The notes under the pieces: model-generated
What the model was told of the DNA's origin: nothing
What the model saw: only the letters and a program-made list of their open reading frames with translations
Database searches by the model: none
Part shown: positions 29,511 to 37,166 of the stretch, in pieces
How the letters are laid out: each line of letters starts with the position of its first letter
Numbering within the stretch: position 1 is the first letter of the stretch
Assembly (NCBI GenBank): GCA_016744995.1
Contig: JADGDG010000001.1
Coordinates: 722,011 to 786,010, forward strand
DNA: 64,000 bases
Reading direction: 5' to 3'
Source: Gammaproteobacteria bacterium
GTDB taxonomy: Bacteria; Pseudomonadota; Gammaproteobacteria; GRL18
Program-made: the position numbers and the translations under genes

Positions 29511-30572
29511 ATGAAACCACAAGCAATGGAAAAACAACGTAAGGCAGTTGCTTTAATCTCTGGTGGACTGGATTCCATGCTGGCAGTTAAAGTCATTCAG
29601 GATCAGGGTATTCACGTCGAGGGAATTAATTTTTTTACCGGATTTTGTGTCGAAGGTCATACTCATGCTGTGCGTAAAAAGCATAAAGACAAACAAAAGC
29701 GCAATAATGCCCTCTGGGTTGCAGAGCAGTTGGGGATCAAACTGCACATTGTTGATGTGGTGGAAGAATATAAGGATATCTTATTAAATCCTGTGCATGG
29801 TTATGGCAAAAACGTCAATCCCTGCCTGGATTGTAAAACGTTTATGGTCAAAAAAGCGGTTGAATGGATTAAAGAGCATGATTTTGATTTCATAATTACC
29901 GGTGAAGTTGTGGGCCAACGGCCAATGTCACAGCGCAAAGAGACTATGCCTGTTGTTGCCAAAAATTCTGGCAGTGCTGACTTGCTGGTCAGACCGCTCA
30001 GTGCCCGGCAGTTACCGGCGACTCTGCCTGAGCGTGAGGGCTGGCTGAAACGGGAACAAATGTATGACTTTAGTGGTCGCACCCGAAAGCCGCAAATGGC
30101 TCTGGCCAAACAATATGGTTTTGATGATTATGCACAGCCCGCAGGTGGCTGCTGTATGCTGACGGATGAAAATTATGCCGTTAAGTTAATAGATATGTGG
30201 GACAATCGTCCCAGTCGTGAATATGAGCTGGATGATATTATTATGCTGAAGATGGGACGGCATTTTCGTCTGGCACCTCATTTAAAAATTATTATTGGCC
30301 GCGAAGAAGGTGAAAATAATTTTATGCAGGGTTACAAAGGTCTGTTTGTTTCAATTTTCCCCACCAGCCATCCCGGAGCCTTGTGTCTGGTTGACGGTGA
30401 ATTTAAATCGGCTGTTGAATTAAACCAGGCACTGGCACTTGTTGCTCGTTATAGTCAGGGGAAAAATGCACCGGAAGTGACATTGAGTGTGCGCCAGATT
30501 GACGGCACTGAAAAGGAATATAATATCGCTCCAATGGCAGTTGATGATATTAATAAGGAGTGGATTATATGA
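29511..30572 (+). CDS. PP-loop tRNA thiolation-type enzyme (MnmA/ThiI-like)
   Basis: A 353-residue adenine-nucleotide alpha-hydrolase protein. The ATP-binding PP-loop is SGGLDSMLA (residues ~17-25). Candidate sulfur-handling cysteines are in NPCLDCKTFM and AGGCCMLTD, and TGEVVGQRPMSQ is typical of this subgroup, often annotated as a thiouridylase-like tRNA enzyme. The family is related to MnmA and ThiI but lacks the THUMP domain of ThiI. The C-terminal ~100 residues form a separate small domain. The gene overlaps a TusA-like gene by 4 bp (ATGA), strongly suggesting a sulfur donor/acceptor pair. The target RNA or cofactor is not evident. Confidence 0.8.
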   Translation: MKPQAMEKQRKAVALISGGLDSMLAVKVIQDQGIHVEGINFFTGFCVEGHTHAVRKKHKDKQKRNNALWVAEQLGIKLHIVDVVEEYKDILLNPVHGYGKNVNPCLDCKTFMVKKAVEWIKEHDFDFIITGEVVGQRPMSQRKETMPVVAKNSGSADLLVRPLSARQLPATLPEREGWLKREQMYDFSGRTRKPQMALAKQYGFDDYAQPAGGCCMLTDENYAVKLIDMWDNRPSREYELDDIIMLKMGRHFRLAPHLKIIIGREEGENNFMQGYKGLFVSIFPTSHPGALCLVDGEFKSAVELNQALALVARYSQGKNAPEVTLSVRQIDGTEKEYNIAPMAVDDINKEWII

Positions 30573-30856
30573 GCCATCAGCCAGATAAGAGCCATCAGCC
30601 AGCAGATATGAGCCTTGAGCATGACAAGGATCATCAATTGGATGCACGTCGCTTACTTTGCCCTTTGCCAGTAATTCGTACTCAGGATGCCATTGCAAAG
30701 CTTCAAGTTGGAGAATTGTTAACAGTCACCAGCACTGATCCGGGTGCAAAAATGGATATACCCTGCTGGTGCCGAATTAATGGCCATGAGGTGGTAGAAA
30801 TTAAAGAGCAGGATCATGAAATTATTATTACTATCCGGGTTATGGCAGAAAAGTAA
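30569..30856 (+). CDS. TusA-family sulfur carrier protein
   Basis: A 95-residue TusA-like protein. The sulfur-carrying Cys is in the family motif LDARRLLCPLPVIRTQDAI (residues ~28-46). I chose ATG 30569, with AAGGAG eight bases upstream, over a GTG at 30560. The first ~25 residues form an extension rich in SHQP/H/D absent from usual TusA. Its DNA is two units of an 18-bp repeat related to the array in gmhB. TusA proteins relay persulfide sulfur for tRNA thiolation or, in sulfur oxidisers, to the Dsr/Hdr pathway. The PP-loop enzyme directly upstream is the likely recipient. Confidence 0.87.
   Translation: MSHQPDKSHQPADMSLEHDKDHQLDARRLLCPLPVIRTQDAIAKLQVGELLTVTSTDPGAKMDIPCWCRINGHEVVEIKEQDHEIIITIRVMAEK
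30571..30606. repeat. Two 18-bp repeat units at the 5' end of tusA-like gene
   Basis: GAGCCATCAGCCAGATAA (30571-30588) and GAGCCATCAGCCAGCAGA (30589-30606) match the gmhB array consensus over the first ~11-12 bases; a degenerate third unit follows. Here the repeat is read on the opposite relative strand. Confidence 0.7.
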
Positions 30857-30993
30857 TAAATATGTAATATTAATTCTTGCTTATATTAATAATATCTAAT
30901 ATACTTATCCCACGTTGAAACACAATACAAAAATTAATCAACAAATTAATACATTTATAAAACACACACAAAATTCATACTGGAGAGTATAAA

Positions 30994-31422
30994 ATGAAAA
31001 AATTAATTATTGCCTCTGCAATCATCACATCTGTTATTTCTATGTCTGCTAATGCCTTTTGGGGTGATGACAGCAATTCCAACACTAACTGGAATGGCAA
31101 CACCAATAACAACATGAACAACAATGCCTACGGAAATGGTTATGGCAATGGTTGGGGTGACGGCAGCATGGACAGTGATATGGATGGTGACTTCGAAATC
31201 ACAATTAAAGCACGTGGTCGTGGCCGTGGTAAAGGAAATACACGTGGTTCAGCTTATGGAAGTGGTGACAGCCGTTATAATGGCTACAATAACATGGACA
31301 ATCGTTTCAATGGTTATAATAACTATTCTAACCAGGGTAATGGTTATTATCCTCGTCCAGTACAGGCGCCTGTTGCCCCAGCTGCGGCACCAGCTCCTGT
31401 AGCAAAACAAGCAGCTAAATAA
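30994..31422 (+). CDS. Secreted Asn/Gly-rich protein, sulfur globule protein-like
   Basis: A 142-residue low-complexity protein. The signal peptide (MKKLIIASAIITSVISMSANA) is followed by FWGDD, long Asn/Gly/Tyr-rich stretches, an acidic MDSDMDGDFEITIKARGRG block with an RGRGRGK segment, then GYNN/NGYY repeats and an Ala/Pro tail. This composition and order resemble the sulfur globule envelope proteins (SgpA/SgpB type), which coat intracellular or periplasmic sulfur. A TusA-like gene lies just upstream. GGAGAG lies eight bases before ATG. The composition could also fit a generic Asn-rich structural protein, so this is a probable call. Confidence 0.6.
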   Translation: MKKLIIASAIITSVISMSANAFWGDDSNSNTNWNGNTNNNMNNNAYGNGYGNGWGDGSMDSDMDGDFEITIKARGRGRGKGNTRGSAYGSGDSRYNGYNNMDNRFNGYNNYSNQGNGYYPRPVQAPVAPAAAPAPVAKQAAK

Positions 31423-31485: not shown

Positions 31486-31541
31486 AAAAAGCCCGTTTCA
31501 CTCATTTTATTGCTAAATGACAGTGAAACGGGCTTTTTTTT
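31486..31541. terminator. Strong bidirectional intrinsic terminator
   Basis: AAAAAGCCCGTTTCACT (31486-31502) pairs perfectly over 17 bp with 31522-31538, and a run of eight T follows the plus-strand stem. On the minus strand the stem is followed by TTTTT, so it can also end transcripts of the small minus ORF at 31551. Confidence 0.93.
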
Positions 31542-31692: not shown

Positions 31693-31794
31693 AATTGCTT
31701 CCAAAATACGCATCCTTGTTGTGCTGAGTCATTATGGAATGATGTCTGAGCATTGCAAACAAAATATTTAGTCATTAAAGCAGAGGAATACAGA

Positions 31795-33969
31795 ATGAGT
31801 GGAAATGAATCACGCCTTCAAGCGATTTACCAGATCACAAATCGTGAAATTTTAGAAATAGAAAAAACTGAGCCGCTGAAAGATATCTGGGGATGCGATG
31901 TTTTTAACCTGGCAAAAATGGAAGATTCTCTTTCAAAAAATGCTTATAAAGCCATCAAGAAAACTGTAAAAACGGGAGAGCCTCTTGATTCAGCTACTGC
32001 AGATATTGTTGCTGCAGCGATGAAAGAGTGGGCCGTTTCTAAAGGTGTTAAATTCTATTCTCACATTTTCTATCCTCTGACTCATGCCACTGCTGAAAAG
32101 CATGATGGCTTTATTATCACTAATTCTGATGGTAATGCTATTACTGAATTTACCGGCAGTCTACTGATCAAAGGTGAGCCAGATGGTTCATCCTTCCCTA
32201 ATGGCAGTATCCGTATGACCAATGCTGCACGTGGTTATACTGCATGGGATCCCACCAGCCCGGTTTATGTTCAGCATACTGATAATGGTGCAACACTGAT
32301 GATCCCGTGTGTATTCATGTCATGGACAGGTGAAGCTCTGGATAAGAAAATTCCTCTTTTACGTTCAAATGATGCTATGAACAAAGCGGGCAACAGAGTG
32401 CTTTCATTGATGGGTGAAGAAGAAATTGCTCCTCTGAATTCCAGTTGTGGTGCTGAGCAGGAATACTTTCTGGTTGATTGCAACTTTGCCAATAGTCGCC
32501 CGGATTTATTATTAACAGGTCGTACCTTGTTTGGCGCGCCTTCTGCAAAAGGTCAGGAGTTTGATGATCATTACTTTGGTGCGATTCCAGCTCGCGTCCA
32601 GGTTTATATGCAGGATGTTGAAGATCAGCTGTACCGCCTGGGTATCCCGGCTAAAACTCACCACAACGAAGTTGCTCCTGGTCAATTCGAAATTGCACCC
32701 TATTTTGAAGCAGCTAATGTCGCCGCTGACCACCAGCAGATGTTAATGACTATTTTAAAAGGCACCGCTAAGAAACACGGTTTCATTTGTTTATTACATG
32801 AAAAGCCTTTTGCCGGAATCAATGGTTCTGGTAAACACGTTAACTGGTCTGTGGGCAATGCCACACAGGGCAACCTGCTGGATCCAGGCCGTACTCCCCA
32901 TGATAATCTGAATTTCTTATTATTCTGTGGTGCGGTCATCCGTGGAGTCAATCAATTTGGTCCATTATTGCGCGCAGTGATTGCTTCTGCAGGAAATGAC
33001 CATCGCCTGGGAGCCAATGAAGCACCTCCTGCGATCTTATCTGTTTATCTTGGTTCACAGCTTGAAAAAGTGTATGAAGATATCAAAGAGGGTAAGCTGC
33101 TAAAAGCCGAAAGTGGTGGTGAAATGGATTTGGGGCTAACTCAGATCCTGAACTTTGAACGCGATCCGGGTGACCGTAATCGTACTTCTCCATTTGCTTT
33201 TACCGGTAACCGTTTTGAGTTTCGTGCTGTTGGTTCTGCACAATCGGTTTCAGGTCCACTGATTGTTATGAATACCATGCTTGCAGACTCTCTGAGCTGG
33301 ATTGGGGATAAGCTTGAAGCAGAACTAAAATCAGGTGCTGAAAAAACTGCAGCAGTAATTAATGTACTTCAGGAATTGATTAAGGACAATGGCAATGCGG
33401 TCTTTGGTGGTGATGGTTACTCCAGTGAGTGGCATGAAGCTGCAGTTAAAGAGCGTGGCCTGAAAAATATCCCTACCACGGCTGATGCTCTTCCTGCATT
33501 TCAGGATGATGCGGTAAAAGCACTATTTGAAAGCACTGGAGTTCTTACTCCGGTTGAGCTTGCCAGTCGTTATGAAGTGTATGCTGAGCAATATATTCTC
33601 TCCATTGAAGTGGAAGCGAAGCTGGTGGTTGATATGGCAACTACTTCAATCTATCCAGCGGCAACTCGTTACCTGTCAGAATTATCAATGACAGCCTCAG
33701 GTCTGGGTGAGATGGGTATTGAAATAGATAACTCAACTGCAAAAACTGTGGCTACTGAAGCCAATGAGATGATGGCAGCAGTAACAAGTCTTAGTGAAGC
33801 AATGACTAAAGAAGACTTTGCAACAACTGATGATCATACACAGTACTTTGCCACTGAAATTCGTGCTTTGATGGATGCAGTTCGTGTGCATGCTGATGCA
33901 CTTGAGACAGTTGTTGCTGATGAGTTATGGCCTCTGCCTAAGTATCATGAAATGTTGTTTATTAAGTAA
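31795..33969 (+). CDS. glnN: Type III glutamine synthetase (GlnN)
   Basis: A 724-residue GSIII enzyme, making glutamine from glutamate, ammonia and ATP. GSIII is a dodecamer quite unlike GSI. The family pattern is clear: IWGCDVFNLAKM, KFYSHIFYPLTHATAEKHDGF, SCGAEQEYFLVD, THHNEVAPGQFEIAP and INGSGKHVNWSVG (metal and glutamate site), and DRNRTSPFAFTGNRFEFRAVG. The ATG at 31795 has AGAGGAA upstream; the frame is open further but without a signal. GSIII next to a GSI (35763) gives the cell two unrelated glutamine synthetases. The stop codon lies inside the target duplication of a MITE. Confidence 0.95.
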   Translation: MSGNESRLQAIYQITNREILEIEKTEPLKDIWGCDVFNLAKMEDSLSKNAYKAIKKTVKTGEPLDSATADIVAAAMKEWAVSKGVKFYSHIFYPLTHATAEKHDGFIITNSDGNAITEFTGSLLIKGEPDGSSFPNGSIRMTNAARGYTAWDPTSPVYVQHTDNGATLMIPCVFMSWTGEALDKKIPLLRSNDAMNKAGNRVLSLMGEEEIAPLNSSCGAEQEYFLVDCNFANSRPDLLLTGRTLFGAPSAKGQEFDDHYFGAIPARVQVYMQDVEDQLYRLGIPAKTHHNEVAPGQFEIAPYFEAANVAADHQQMLMTILKGTAKKHGFICLLHEKPFAGINGSGKHVNWSVGNATQGNLLDPGRTPHDNLNFLLFCGAVIRGVNQFGPLLRAVIASAGNDHRLGANEAPPAILSVYLGSQLEKVYEDIKEGKLLKAESGGEMDLGLTQILNFERDPGDRNRTSPFAFTGNRFEFRAVGSAQSVSGPLIVMNTMLADSLSWIGDKLEAELKSGAEKTAAVINVLQELIKDNGNAVFGGDGYSSEWHEAAVKERGLKNIPTTADALPAFQDDAVKALFESTGVLTPVELASRYEVYAEQYILSIEVEAKLVVDMATTSIYPAATRYLSELSMTASGLGEMGIEIDNSTAKTVATEANEMMAAVTSLSEAMTKEDFATTDDHTQYFATEIRALMDAVRVHADALETVVADELWPLPKYHEMLFIK

Positions 33970-35762: not shown

Positions 35763-37166
35763 ATGTCTGATGTTTTAAAAATGATCGAAGAAAACGGTGT
35801 GAAGTTTGTAGATTTTCGCTTCACTGATACTCATGGAAAAGAGCAGCATGTGAGTGTGCCTGCTAAAACAGTCGATGCCAGTACGTTTGAAGATGGTAAA
35901 ATGTTTGACGGCTCTTCAATTTCAGGTTGGAAGGGGATTAATGATTCCGATATGATTTTAATGCCTGATGCTGCGACTGCAGTGATGGATCCTTTCACGG
36001 ATGAGCCTACCATTATTATTACCTGTGATATTGTTGAGCCATTGACGATGCAGGGCTATGAGCGAGATCCCCGTTCCGTGGCTAAACGTGCGATTGATTA
36101 TTTAAAATCGACCGGTATTGGTGATGAAGCATATTTTGGTCCTGAGCCGGAATTTTTTATTCTTGATGATGTTCGTTGGGGCTCAGATATGAGTGGCACC
36201 TTTGTTAAGGTGGATTCTGAAGAGTCTGAGTGGAACTCTGAAAAAGTGTATCATGATGGTAATATGGGACATAGACCGGGAGTAAAAGGTGGTTATTTCC
36301 CTGTGCCTCCGGTTGATTCTCTGCATGATATTCGGGCACAGATGTGTCTGACACTGGAAGAAATGGGTCAGGAAGTTGAAGTTCATCACCATGAAGTAGC
36401 AACAGCAGGTCAATGTGAAATTGGTGTTAAATTTAATACCCTGATATGTAAGGCAGATGAAGTCCAGCAAATGAAGTATGTGATCCACAATGTCTCGCAT
36501 GCTTATGGTAAAACAGCGACTTTTATGCCCAAGCCCATTGTCGGCGATAATGGCTCGGGTATGCATGTGCATCAGTCTATTTTTAAAGATGGTGAAAATC
36601 TATTCTCCGGGGATGGTTATGCAGGTTTGTCTGAGACTGCTCTGTACTACATTGGCGGCATTATTAAACATGCCAGGGCATTGAATGCTTTTACTAATGC
36701 CTCGACCAATAGTTATAAACGTCTGGTGCCGGGATTCGAAGCGCCTGTCATGCTGGCTTATTCTGCTCGAAATCGCTCAGCAGCGATTCGTATTCCCTAT
36801 GAATCAAACCCTAAGGGACGTCGGGTTGAAGTTCGTTTCCCCGATCCAACGGCAAATCCGTATCTGGCTTTTTCTGCAATGCTGTTAGCAGGTCTGGATG
36901 GTATCCAGAATAAGATCCACCCAGGCGATCCAATGGATAAAGATTTATATGATCTGCCACCGGAAGAGGCATCAGAAATACCCACAGTGGCCAGCTCTCT
37001 GAATCAGGCTTTAGAGGCTCTGGAAAATGATATGGATTTTCTAACTGTCGGCGGCGTTTTCCCTGAAGATATGATTCAGGCCTTTATTGATCTCAAAATG
37101 GAAGAAGTCACACGCTTACGTATGACCACACATCCAATTGAATTTGATATGTATTATAGCTGTTAA
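35763..37166 (+). CDS. glnA: Type I glutamine synthetase (GlnA)
   Basis: A 467-residue GSI-beta enzyme, the main ammonia-assimilating glutamine synthetase. Motifs are [63 protein letters not shown] (ATP-site signature), and [20 protein letters not shown]. The adenylylation site is the Tyr in [10 protein letters not shown] (~residue 398), so GlnE control is likely. The ATG has TTGGAGA upstream. Upstream NtrC-like sites and downstream ntrB-ntrC make a nitrogen-regulated locus. A strong terminator follows. Confidence 0.97.

Follow-up and report, generated by a model that had tools for sequence, protein, structure and literature searches.

The Locus and its Features

The window is a stretch of 64,000 nucleotides from a gammaproteobacterial genome, and it carries a gene for a small, predicted exported protein, referred to below as Sgp. 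The gene lies downstream of a TusA-like gene and a PP-loop gene, and the features of the locus are the following:

29511..30572, + strand: MnmA/ThiI-like PP-loop protein with a C-terminal NFACT-R_2 domain (domain matches)
30572..30856, + strand: TusA-like sulfur carrier (PF01206, E 9e-24), whose start overlaps the PP-loop stop by one base
30867-30886, no strand: second inverted repeat, overlapping, with one mismatch (sequence symmetry)
30877..30905, + strand: shared Sgp promoter TTGCTWATATTAA-N10-TATACT, sigma70-type, with -35 TTGCTT, a 17-bp spacer and -10 TATACT
30883..30902, no strand: inverted repeat ATATTA-N8-TAATAT in the promoter, a possible repressor operator judged by its symmetry
30980..30993, + strand: conserved leader and ribosome-binding site CTGGAGAGTATAAA, directly before the ATG
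30994..31422, + strand: Sgp gene, ATG-to-TAA open reading frame of 142 amino acids, predicted exported, belonging to a set of six paralogues
30994..31056, + strand: signal peptide MKKLIIASAIITSVISMSANA, read from the sequence and kept in the 63-member alignment, with probable cleavage after ANA
31162..31251 (approximate span), + strand: conserved core GSMDSDMDGDFEITIKARGRGRGKGNTRGS (63-member alignment)
31486..31538, + strand: hairpin (-27.8 kcal/mol, z -8.08) and T run, which probably end Sgp transcription as an intrinsic terminator

The sequence-only reading had described a secreted Asn/Gly/Tyr-rich protein with a FWGDD start and an RGRGRGK block, and the open reading frame at exactly 30994-31422 has all of these traits. 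The leader contains Lys-Lys and a hydrophobic stretch and ends in SANA, after which FWGDD begins. The body after position 21 holds 23 Asn, 20 Gly and 9 Tyr among its 121 residues, lacks Cys, and includes an ARGRGRGKGN block and an Ala/Pro-rich C-terminal end. Invariant columns of the 63-member alignment include D62, D64, G65, D66, T70, I71, K72, R76, G77, R78, and G79. AlphaFold2 predicted disorder with a signal helix only (pLDDT 43, pTM 0.12), and a structural fold for the protein was rejected on this result. With a GRAVY of -1.28 (Kyte-Doolittle) the protein is hydrophilic; 27 comparison SGP proteins from other families are also all below zero (median -0.94, range -1.40 to -0.27), so this scale does not separate them. 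The Sgps of Allochromatium vinosum have been termed extremely hydrophobic (PMC10386293, in part).

A simple terminator scan listed nothing at 31486..31538. Further downstream are a glutamine synthetase-like reading frame of 738 amino acids (31753-33969) and a glutamine synthetase of 467 amino acids (35763-37166), with a cation efflux-like gene between them (names by eye). A plasmid relative was rejected, as a 24-kb megablast gave no match.

Relationship to Sulfur Globule Proteins

The search with the sulfur globule family that the sequence-only reading had proposed supports its assignment through the matches across the relatives. The Pfam SGP family (PF17228) matches the window protein at E 4.5e-5 and 24.6 bits, just under the curated cut-off of 26.7, and matches 55 of 63 relatives at E <= 0.01 (best 1.5e-10). 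These relatives comprise the copies from 60 outside loci, labelled Gammaproteobacteria, Proteobacteria/Pseudomonadota or Thiohalomonas bins, from which three cut copies were dropped, and the six copies of the genome itself. When the residues of the mature part were shuffled, none of 10 shuffles matched Pfam SGP (limit E <= 10); the match is therefore more than composition, and a composition-only explanation was rejected. A profile of the 63 relatives was also compared with one built from 27 SGP proteins that belong to other families, obtained from 30 loci after L100 and L103 (wrong frame) and L102 (same genus) were dropped. The match between the two profiles (probability 99.7, E 1.5e-26) takes in the signal peptide, AWW/FW, GWGDG, DGDF, and RGRG, and the GSMDSDMDGDFEITIKARGRGRGKGNTRGS core aligned with the GDF-F-M-RGRG stretch of the other families' proteins.

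At E <= 1e-5 the window's own genome (G000) gave no PF17228 match, and in G010, a genome of the same genus, there are matches that exceed the cut-off. The genome carries the window's Sgp and five further copies at 60-80% identity, and the family profile matches all 24 genomes of the order group, with 2 to 9 matches each. A charged, KAYEERMKQW-like C-terminal tail is borne by 24 of the 63 relatives (e.g., L004 and L005), seven others have MKAA repeats, and Pfam Decapeptide matches seven of the 63.

The Sgps of A. vinosum are rich in Gly, Asn, and Tyr. Compared with the 27 proteins of other families, the window subfamily is higher in Asn and lower in Gly, Tyr, and Pro, and it has an Asp-rich DGDxEITIK-RGRGRG core in an alignment made apart from the A. 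vinosum sequences. Like SgpA, SgpB, SgpC, and SgpD of A. vinosum (PF17228), its members combine a signal peptide with a small body and occur as several genes per genome (PMC10386293, in part). By its sequence, the window protein is best taken as an Sgp of a distinct subfamily, and thus of a known kind.

Sulfur Oxidation Genes in the Host and in the Class

The genome of 5.18 Mb is assembled in 65 contigs. On contig C40, dsrA adjoins dsrB, E, F, H, C, M, K, L-like, O, and P; DsrM and DsrP score below their curated cut-offs, and the L-like gene owes its name to its position. The presence of DsrEFH beside dsrAB marks the oxidative pathway. In addition, two soxB genes score over the family cut-off (G000:C17:306108 and G000:C48:122743). 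The proposed search for dsr and sox genes thus returned dsrABEFHC, more dsr genes and two soxB. A lack of sulfur oxidation genes had been named as grounds for abandoning the sulfur globule assignment, and such a lack does not apply, because the dsr genes and both soxB are present.

A second complete dsrA occurs at G000:C35:885603-886814 (L078:10535-11830), with no dsrB among the matches listed. This lone copy is flanked by genes for a sigma-54 activator and an EamA transporter, and two dsrA matches were also seen in four other genomes of the class (G074, G094, G152, and G161).

Across 140 genomes of the class, about one per family, 20 have SGP, 50 have dsrA and 18 have the two together (Fisher 9e-8, the Fisher tests here and below treating genomes as independent). 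The two of the 20 SGP genomes that are without dsrA are G082 and G139. The suggestion of a sulfur globule coat protein has thus gained from the SGP matches across relatives, the dsr and sox genes and the co-occurrence of SGP with dsrA, and the gene very probably encodes such a protein in a sulfur oxidizer.

A Predicted Promoter Shared by Five of the Six Sgp Paralogues

The pattern TTGCTWATATTAA-N10-TATACT was drawn from the regions upstream of 21 genes, which took in the two own copies on C35, the copy C23:168 and 15 near relatives. At that stage the C23:188 copy showed the -10 only, and the C9 copy was not in view at all. The sequence GGAGAGTAT stands at <=30 nt from the start in 20 of the 21 genes looked at, and 88 nt separate the -10 from the ATG of the window Sgp. 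At <= 2 mismatches, the 5.18-Mb genome contains five promoter places, each before an Sgp paralogue, and the reversed pattern used as a control gave none. The sixth paralogue, on C28, is without the shared promoter. This copy (G000:C28:199994-200548, L006) is the most diverged of the six. The full promoter had no place at dsr or sox genes in the genome. The overlapping repeats of window positions 30867-30902 stand 16 bp apart, and the same double arrangement is found at the C9 paralogue.

Across the order group (24 genomes) the promoter has 72 places vs 16 for the reversed pattern, and 60 of the 72 are followed on the same strand by an Sgp match <=350 bp downstream. In these genomes an Sgp match follows every one of the 43 places with 0-1 mismatch, and 17 of the 29 with two; part of the 43 had been seen when the pattern was drawn, which leaves the absence of such near-exact places elsewhere unaffected. 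The site is present at 60 of 131 profile matches, fragments included, and many paralogues therefore have a weaker site or none. Among the upstream regions of the family, 34 of 60 have <= 2 mismatches and 26 have more (three further regions were too short), and none of 1200 shuffled regions had fewer than four.

The shared promoter was not listed by a simple promoter scan. The inverted repeat alone has 47 places in the genome vs 25 for its reversed control, and it was rejected as a genome-wide marker on these counts. A description of the shared promoter or palindrome was not found in the literature searched or in the accessible part of PMC10386293 and may exist elsewhere; a search on the letters of the repeat returned nothing relevant among the matches listed. 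The window gene resembles sgpD of A. vinosum in being a single-gene unit with a terminator and a predicted promoter with -10 TATACT (PMC10386293, in part). The predicted sgpD promoter is TTGATA-N13-TTATATACT, which ends 79 nt before the ATG, and the sgpD transcript is up 28-fold on sulfide (same source, in part). What is new is the palindrome-bearing promoter of the coat genes; the protein itself is of a known kind.

Occurrence of the Promoter in other Families

Upstream of distant SGP genes, eight of 27 regions have <= 4 mismatches to the pattern, vs three of 540 shuffled regions. A relaxed class pattern, drawn after these 27 regions had been read, was found at 51 places in 33 of the 140 genomes, vs 14 places for the reversed control. 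It occurs in 22 of 50 dsrA genomes vs 11 of 90 others (p 5e-5, two members of the own family included), and in 10 of 20 SGP genomes vs 23 of 120 others (p 0.008); the other 10 SGP genomes have no class-pattern place.

Of the 46 class places beyond the own family, 43 were examined, those left out being G136:C228, G132:C35, and G105:C59. Four of the examined places, two in G036 and two in G159, have a contig end just downstream, and the side opposite the promoter direction was covered for 15 loci. Twelve of the 43, in G054, G064, G067, G075 (5/5), G076, G139 (two), and G159, precede genes that match Pfam SGP, and three of these matches fall below the Pfam cut-off. Four of these 12 (G054, G064, G067, and one in G139) are partly circular because they were seen before the class pattern was drawn; the other eight and all the non-SGP sites were not. 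One further place precedes an SGP-looking gene without a Pfam match (G087), and five precede sulfur genes in four genomes. In G055, sites stand before rhodanese and HdrA-like genes, in G147 before a TsuA-like transporter gene and in G107 before a gene of the TsoY family, which is linked to sulfur oxidation, and in G116 SoxX-SoxY-like genes lie on the other side of the palindrome. Cut sequences gave the SoxX, SoxY, HdrA, and TsuA matches, which score below the curated cut-offs. The remaining 25 places face genes that are unrelated or unnamed, no gene, or the end of the contig. The promoter also located SGP genes in G076 and G159 that the Pfam search had left uncalled. Another class site (G159:C54, L158) precedes a secreted Tyr/Pro/Asn-rich protein of ~340 amino acids that is unlike a plain Sgp.

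The Palindrome and a Candidate Regulator

The sites are symmetric, ATATTAG-N6-CTAATAT, which can be read as ATTA-N8-TAAT (16 sites of the family and 19 picked by hand from the class). In the class pattern ATATT and CTAATATACT were fixed, and the positions next to them were left free. At the free positions of the left arm, A was found in 39 and G in 33 of 46 sites; the palindrome is therefore completed at positions that the pattern did not constrain.

Operators of the BigR/SqrR/YgaV/SoxR type are likewise inverted repeats over the core promoter, and the SqrR site, ATTC-N8-GAAT (PMC9774250, in part), has an equal N8 spacing. Its arms differ from those at the Sgp genes, ATTA-N8-TAAT (ATATTAG/CTAATAT). 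Escherichia coli YgaV has been reported to bind close to the sigma recognition sites and the point where its own transcription begins (PMC9774250, in part). Unlike operators of the BigR/SqrR type, the full site in the genome of the window marks only Sgp genes.

Two BigR/SqrR-like ArsR proteins, 84% identical, are encoded in the genome (C35 and C56), and both have Cys46 and Cys112, which are 66 apart. Their genes lie on the reverse strand at L199:2676-3023 and L200:2644-2991. When the C56 protein was compared with solved structures, BigR, HlyU, and YgaV chains ranked first and the nearest was BigR 3pqj; the solved chain group 6o8l, labelled 'ArsR family', is presumably SqrR. SoxR of H. denitrificans has Cys50 and Cys116 (PMC10451225, in part). 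The C35 ArsR gene adjoins rhodanese-like and glutaredoxin-like genes (names by eye), and there is no repeat near it at <= 2 mismatches. Near the C56 gene there are weak repeats only, in AT-rich DNA. A repressor of the BigR/SqrR type, released by reduced sulfur, may be put forward only tentatively as the factor that acts on the shared promoter.

The strongest competing explanation, which is credible if somewhat doubtful, is that the inverted repeat is simply a strong AT-rich sigma70 promoter inherited by duplication, with no repressor, and that another factor regulates the genes. Gene copies may indeed bring their promoter along, the repeat is overlapped by the -35 and -10, and alone it is common in the genome. 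Such a promoter fits less well with the completion of the left arm at free positions (39 and 33 of 46) while the middle varies, with the occurrence of the site at soxXY-like, HdrA-like, and rhodanese genes, which are not paralogues, and with the eight of 12 SGP sites outside the family that were unseen when the class pattern was drawn.

The PP-Loop and TusA Genes Upstream

The sequence-only reading placed the Sgp gene downstream of a pair of TusA genes. Just one TusA is present (30572-30856), and the gene before it (29511-30572) encodes the PP-loop/NFACT-R_2 protein. The TusA carrier upstream of Sgp is thus real, and as a pointer to sulfur storage or oxidation it is weak, since the pair is common without SGP. 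The same pair of TusA and MnmA/ThiI-like PP-loop/NFACT-R_2 genes is found in other gammaproteobacteria, where 26 of 30 fetched PP-loop loci (of 73 matches) have tusA alongside and none of the 30 has an Sgp match beside the PP-loop gene. What differs here from the usual pair is the Sgp gene that follows it, an arrangement seen only in near relatives. The PP-loop family PF18297 occurs in 73 of the 140 genomes, 42 of 50 with dsrA vs 31 of 90 without. The pair is common, and commoner in dsrA lineages, and therefore says little on storage; TusA adjacency was rejected as a marker of sulfur storage because the pair occurs without SGP in other families. A literature search for NFACT-R together with TusA gave no match.

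That the PP-loop, TusA, and Sgp genes form one operon jointly delivering sulfur is unlikely. The three genes stand in this order at 14 of the 60 outside loci with relatives, and the higher frequency of PF18297 in dsrA genomes would agree with a joint role; against this, Sgp has a promoter-like site of its own, this TusA adjoins only the window's copy among the six own Sgp genes, and 26 of the 30 fetched loci of other families combine the PP-loop gene with tusA, none of the 30 having an Sgp match.

Proposed Function and Significance

The explanation that accounts best for the sequence evidence, and a probable one, is that of a periplasmic Sgp expressed from a shared, perhaps repressor-controlled promoter. 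The protein would be exported by Sec and would then assemble with its paralogues into an envelope round elemental sulfur. The stored sulfur would be an intermediate of sulfide or thiosulfate oxidation, to be oxidized later by the Dsr system. A repressor of the BigR/SqrR type, responsive to sulfide or persulfide, may sit on the promoter common to five of the six paralogues; on the arrival of reduced sulfur it would be released from this shared promoter, and the coat proteins would therefore be made together.

A coat on some other inclusion, or on sulfur outside the cell, is a quite improbable alternative to one on intracellular globules in the periplasm. The sequence does not tell localization, and the long-tailed paralogues could serve different surfaces; the signal peptide and the SGP homology, by comparison, fit the periplasmic envelope of A. 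vinosum (PMC10386293, in part). Very improbable is a disordered protein, rich in Asn and Gly, that is secreted for the matrix or surface and has no part in sulfur storage, with a purely compositional SGP match, as the sub-threshold Pfam score and low complexity might suggest (the AlphaFold2 disorder, pLDDT 43, being compatible with both readings), given the lack of any match among the 10 shuffles, the ordered profile match over the signal peptide, WGDG, DGDF, and RGRG, the association of SGP with dsrA, and a promoter common to SGP and some sulfur genes in other families.

For the sulfur globule coat as preferred here, the sites in other families suggest, tentatively, a sulfur-storage regulon that may be ancestral to several gammaproteobacterial families. 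In such a regulon a BigR/SqrR-like repressor on ATATTAG-N6-CTAATAT would let sulfide switch on the coat genes and, in some lineages, also sox, Hdr-like, rhodanese, and thiosulfate transport genes, and the site would be almost private to coat genes in the family of the window. Apparently little is known about how coat synthesis is timed with sulfur supply; the accessible part of PMC10386293 gives induction data and predicted promoters and names no regulator. The coat-gene promoter sequence across families would offer a direct test of the regulator, and it is also a way to find coat genes missed by protein profiles, as in G076 and G159.
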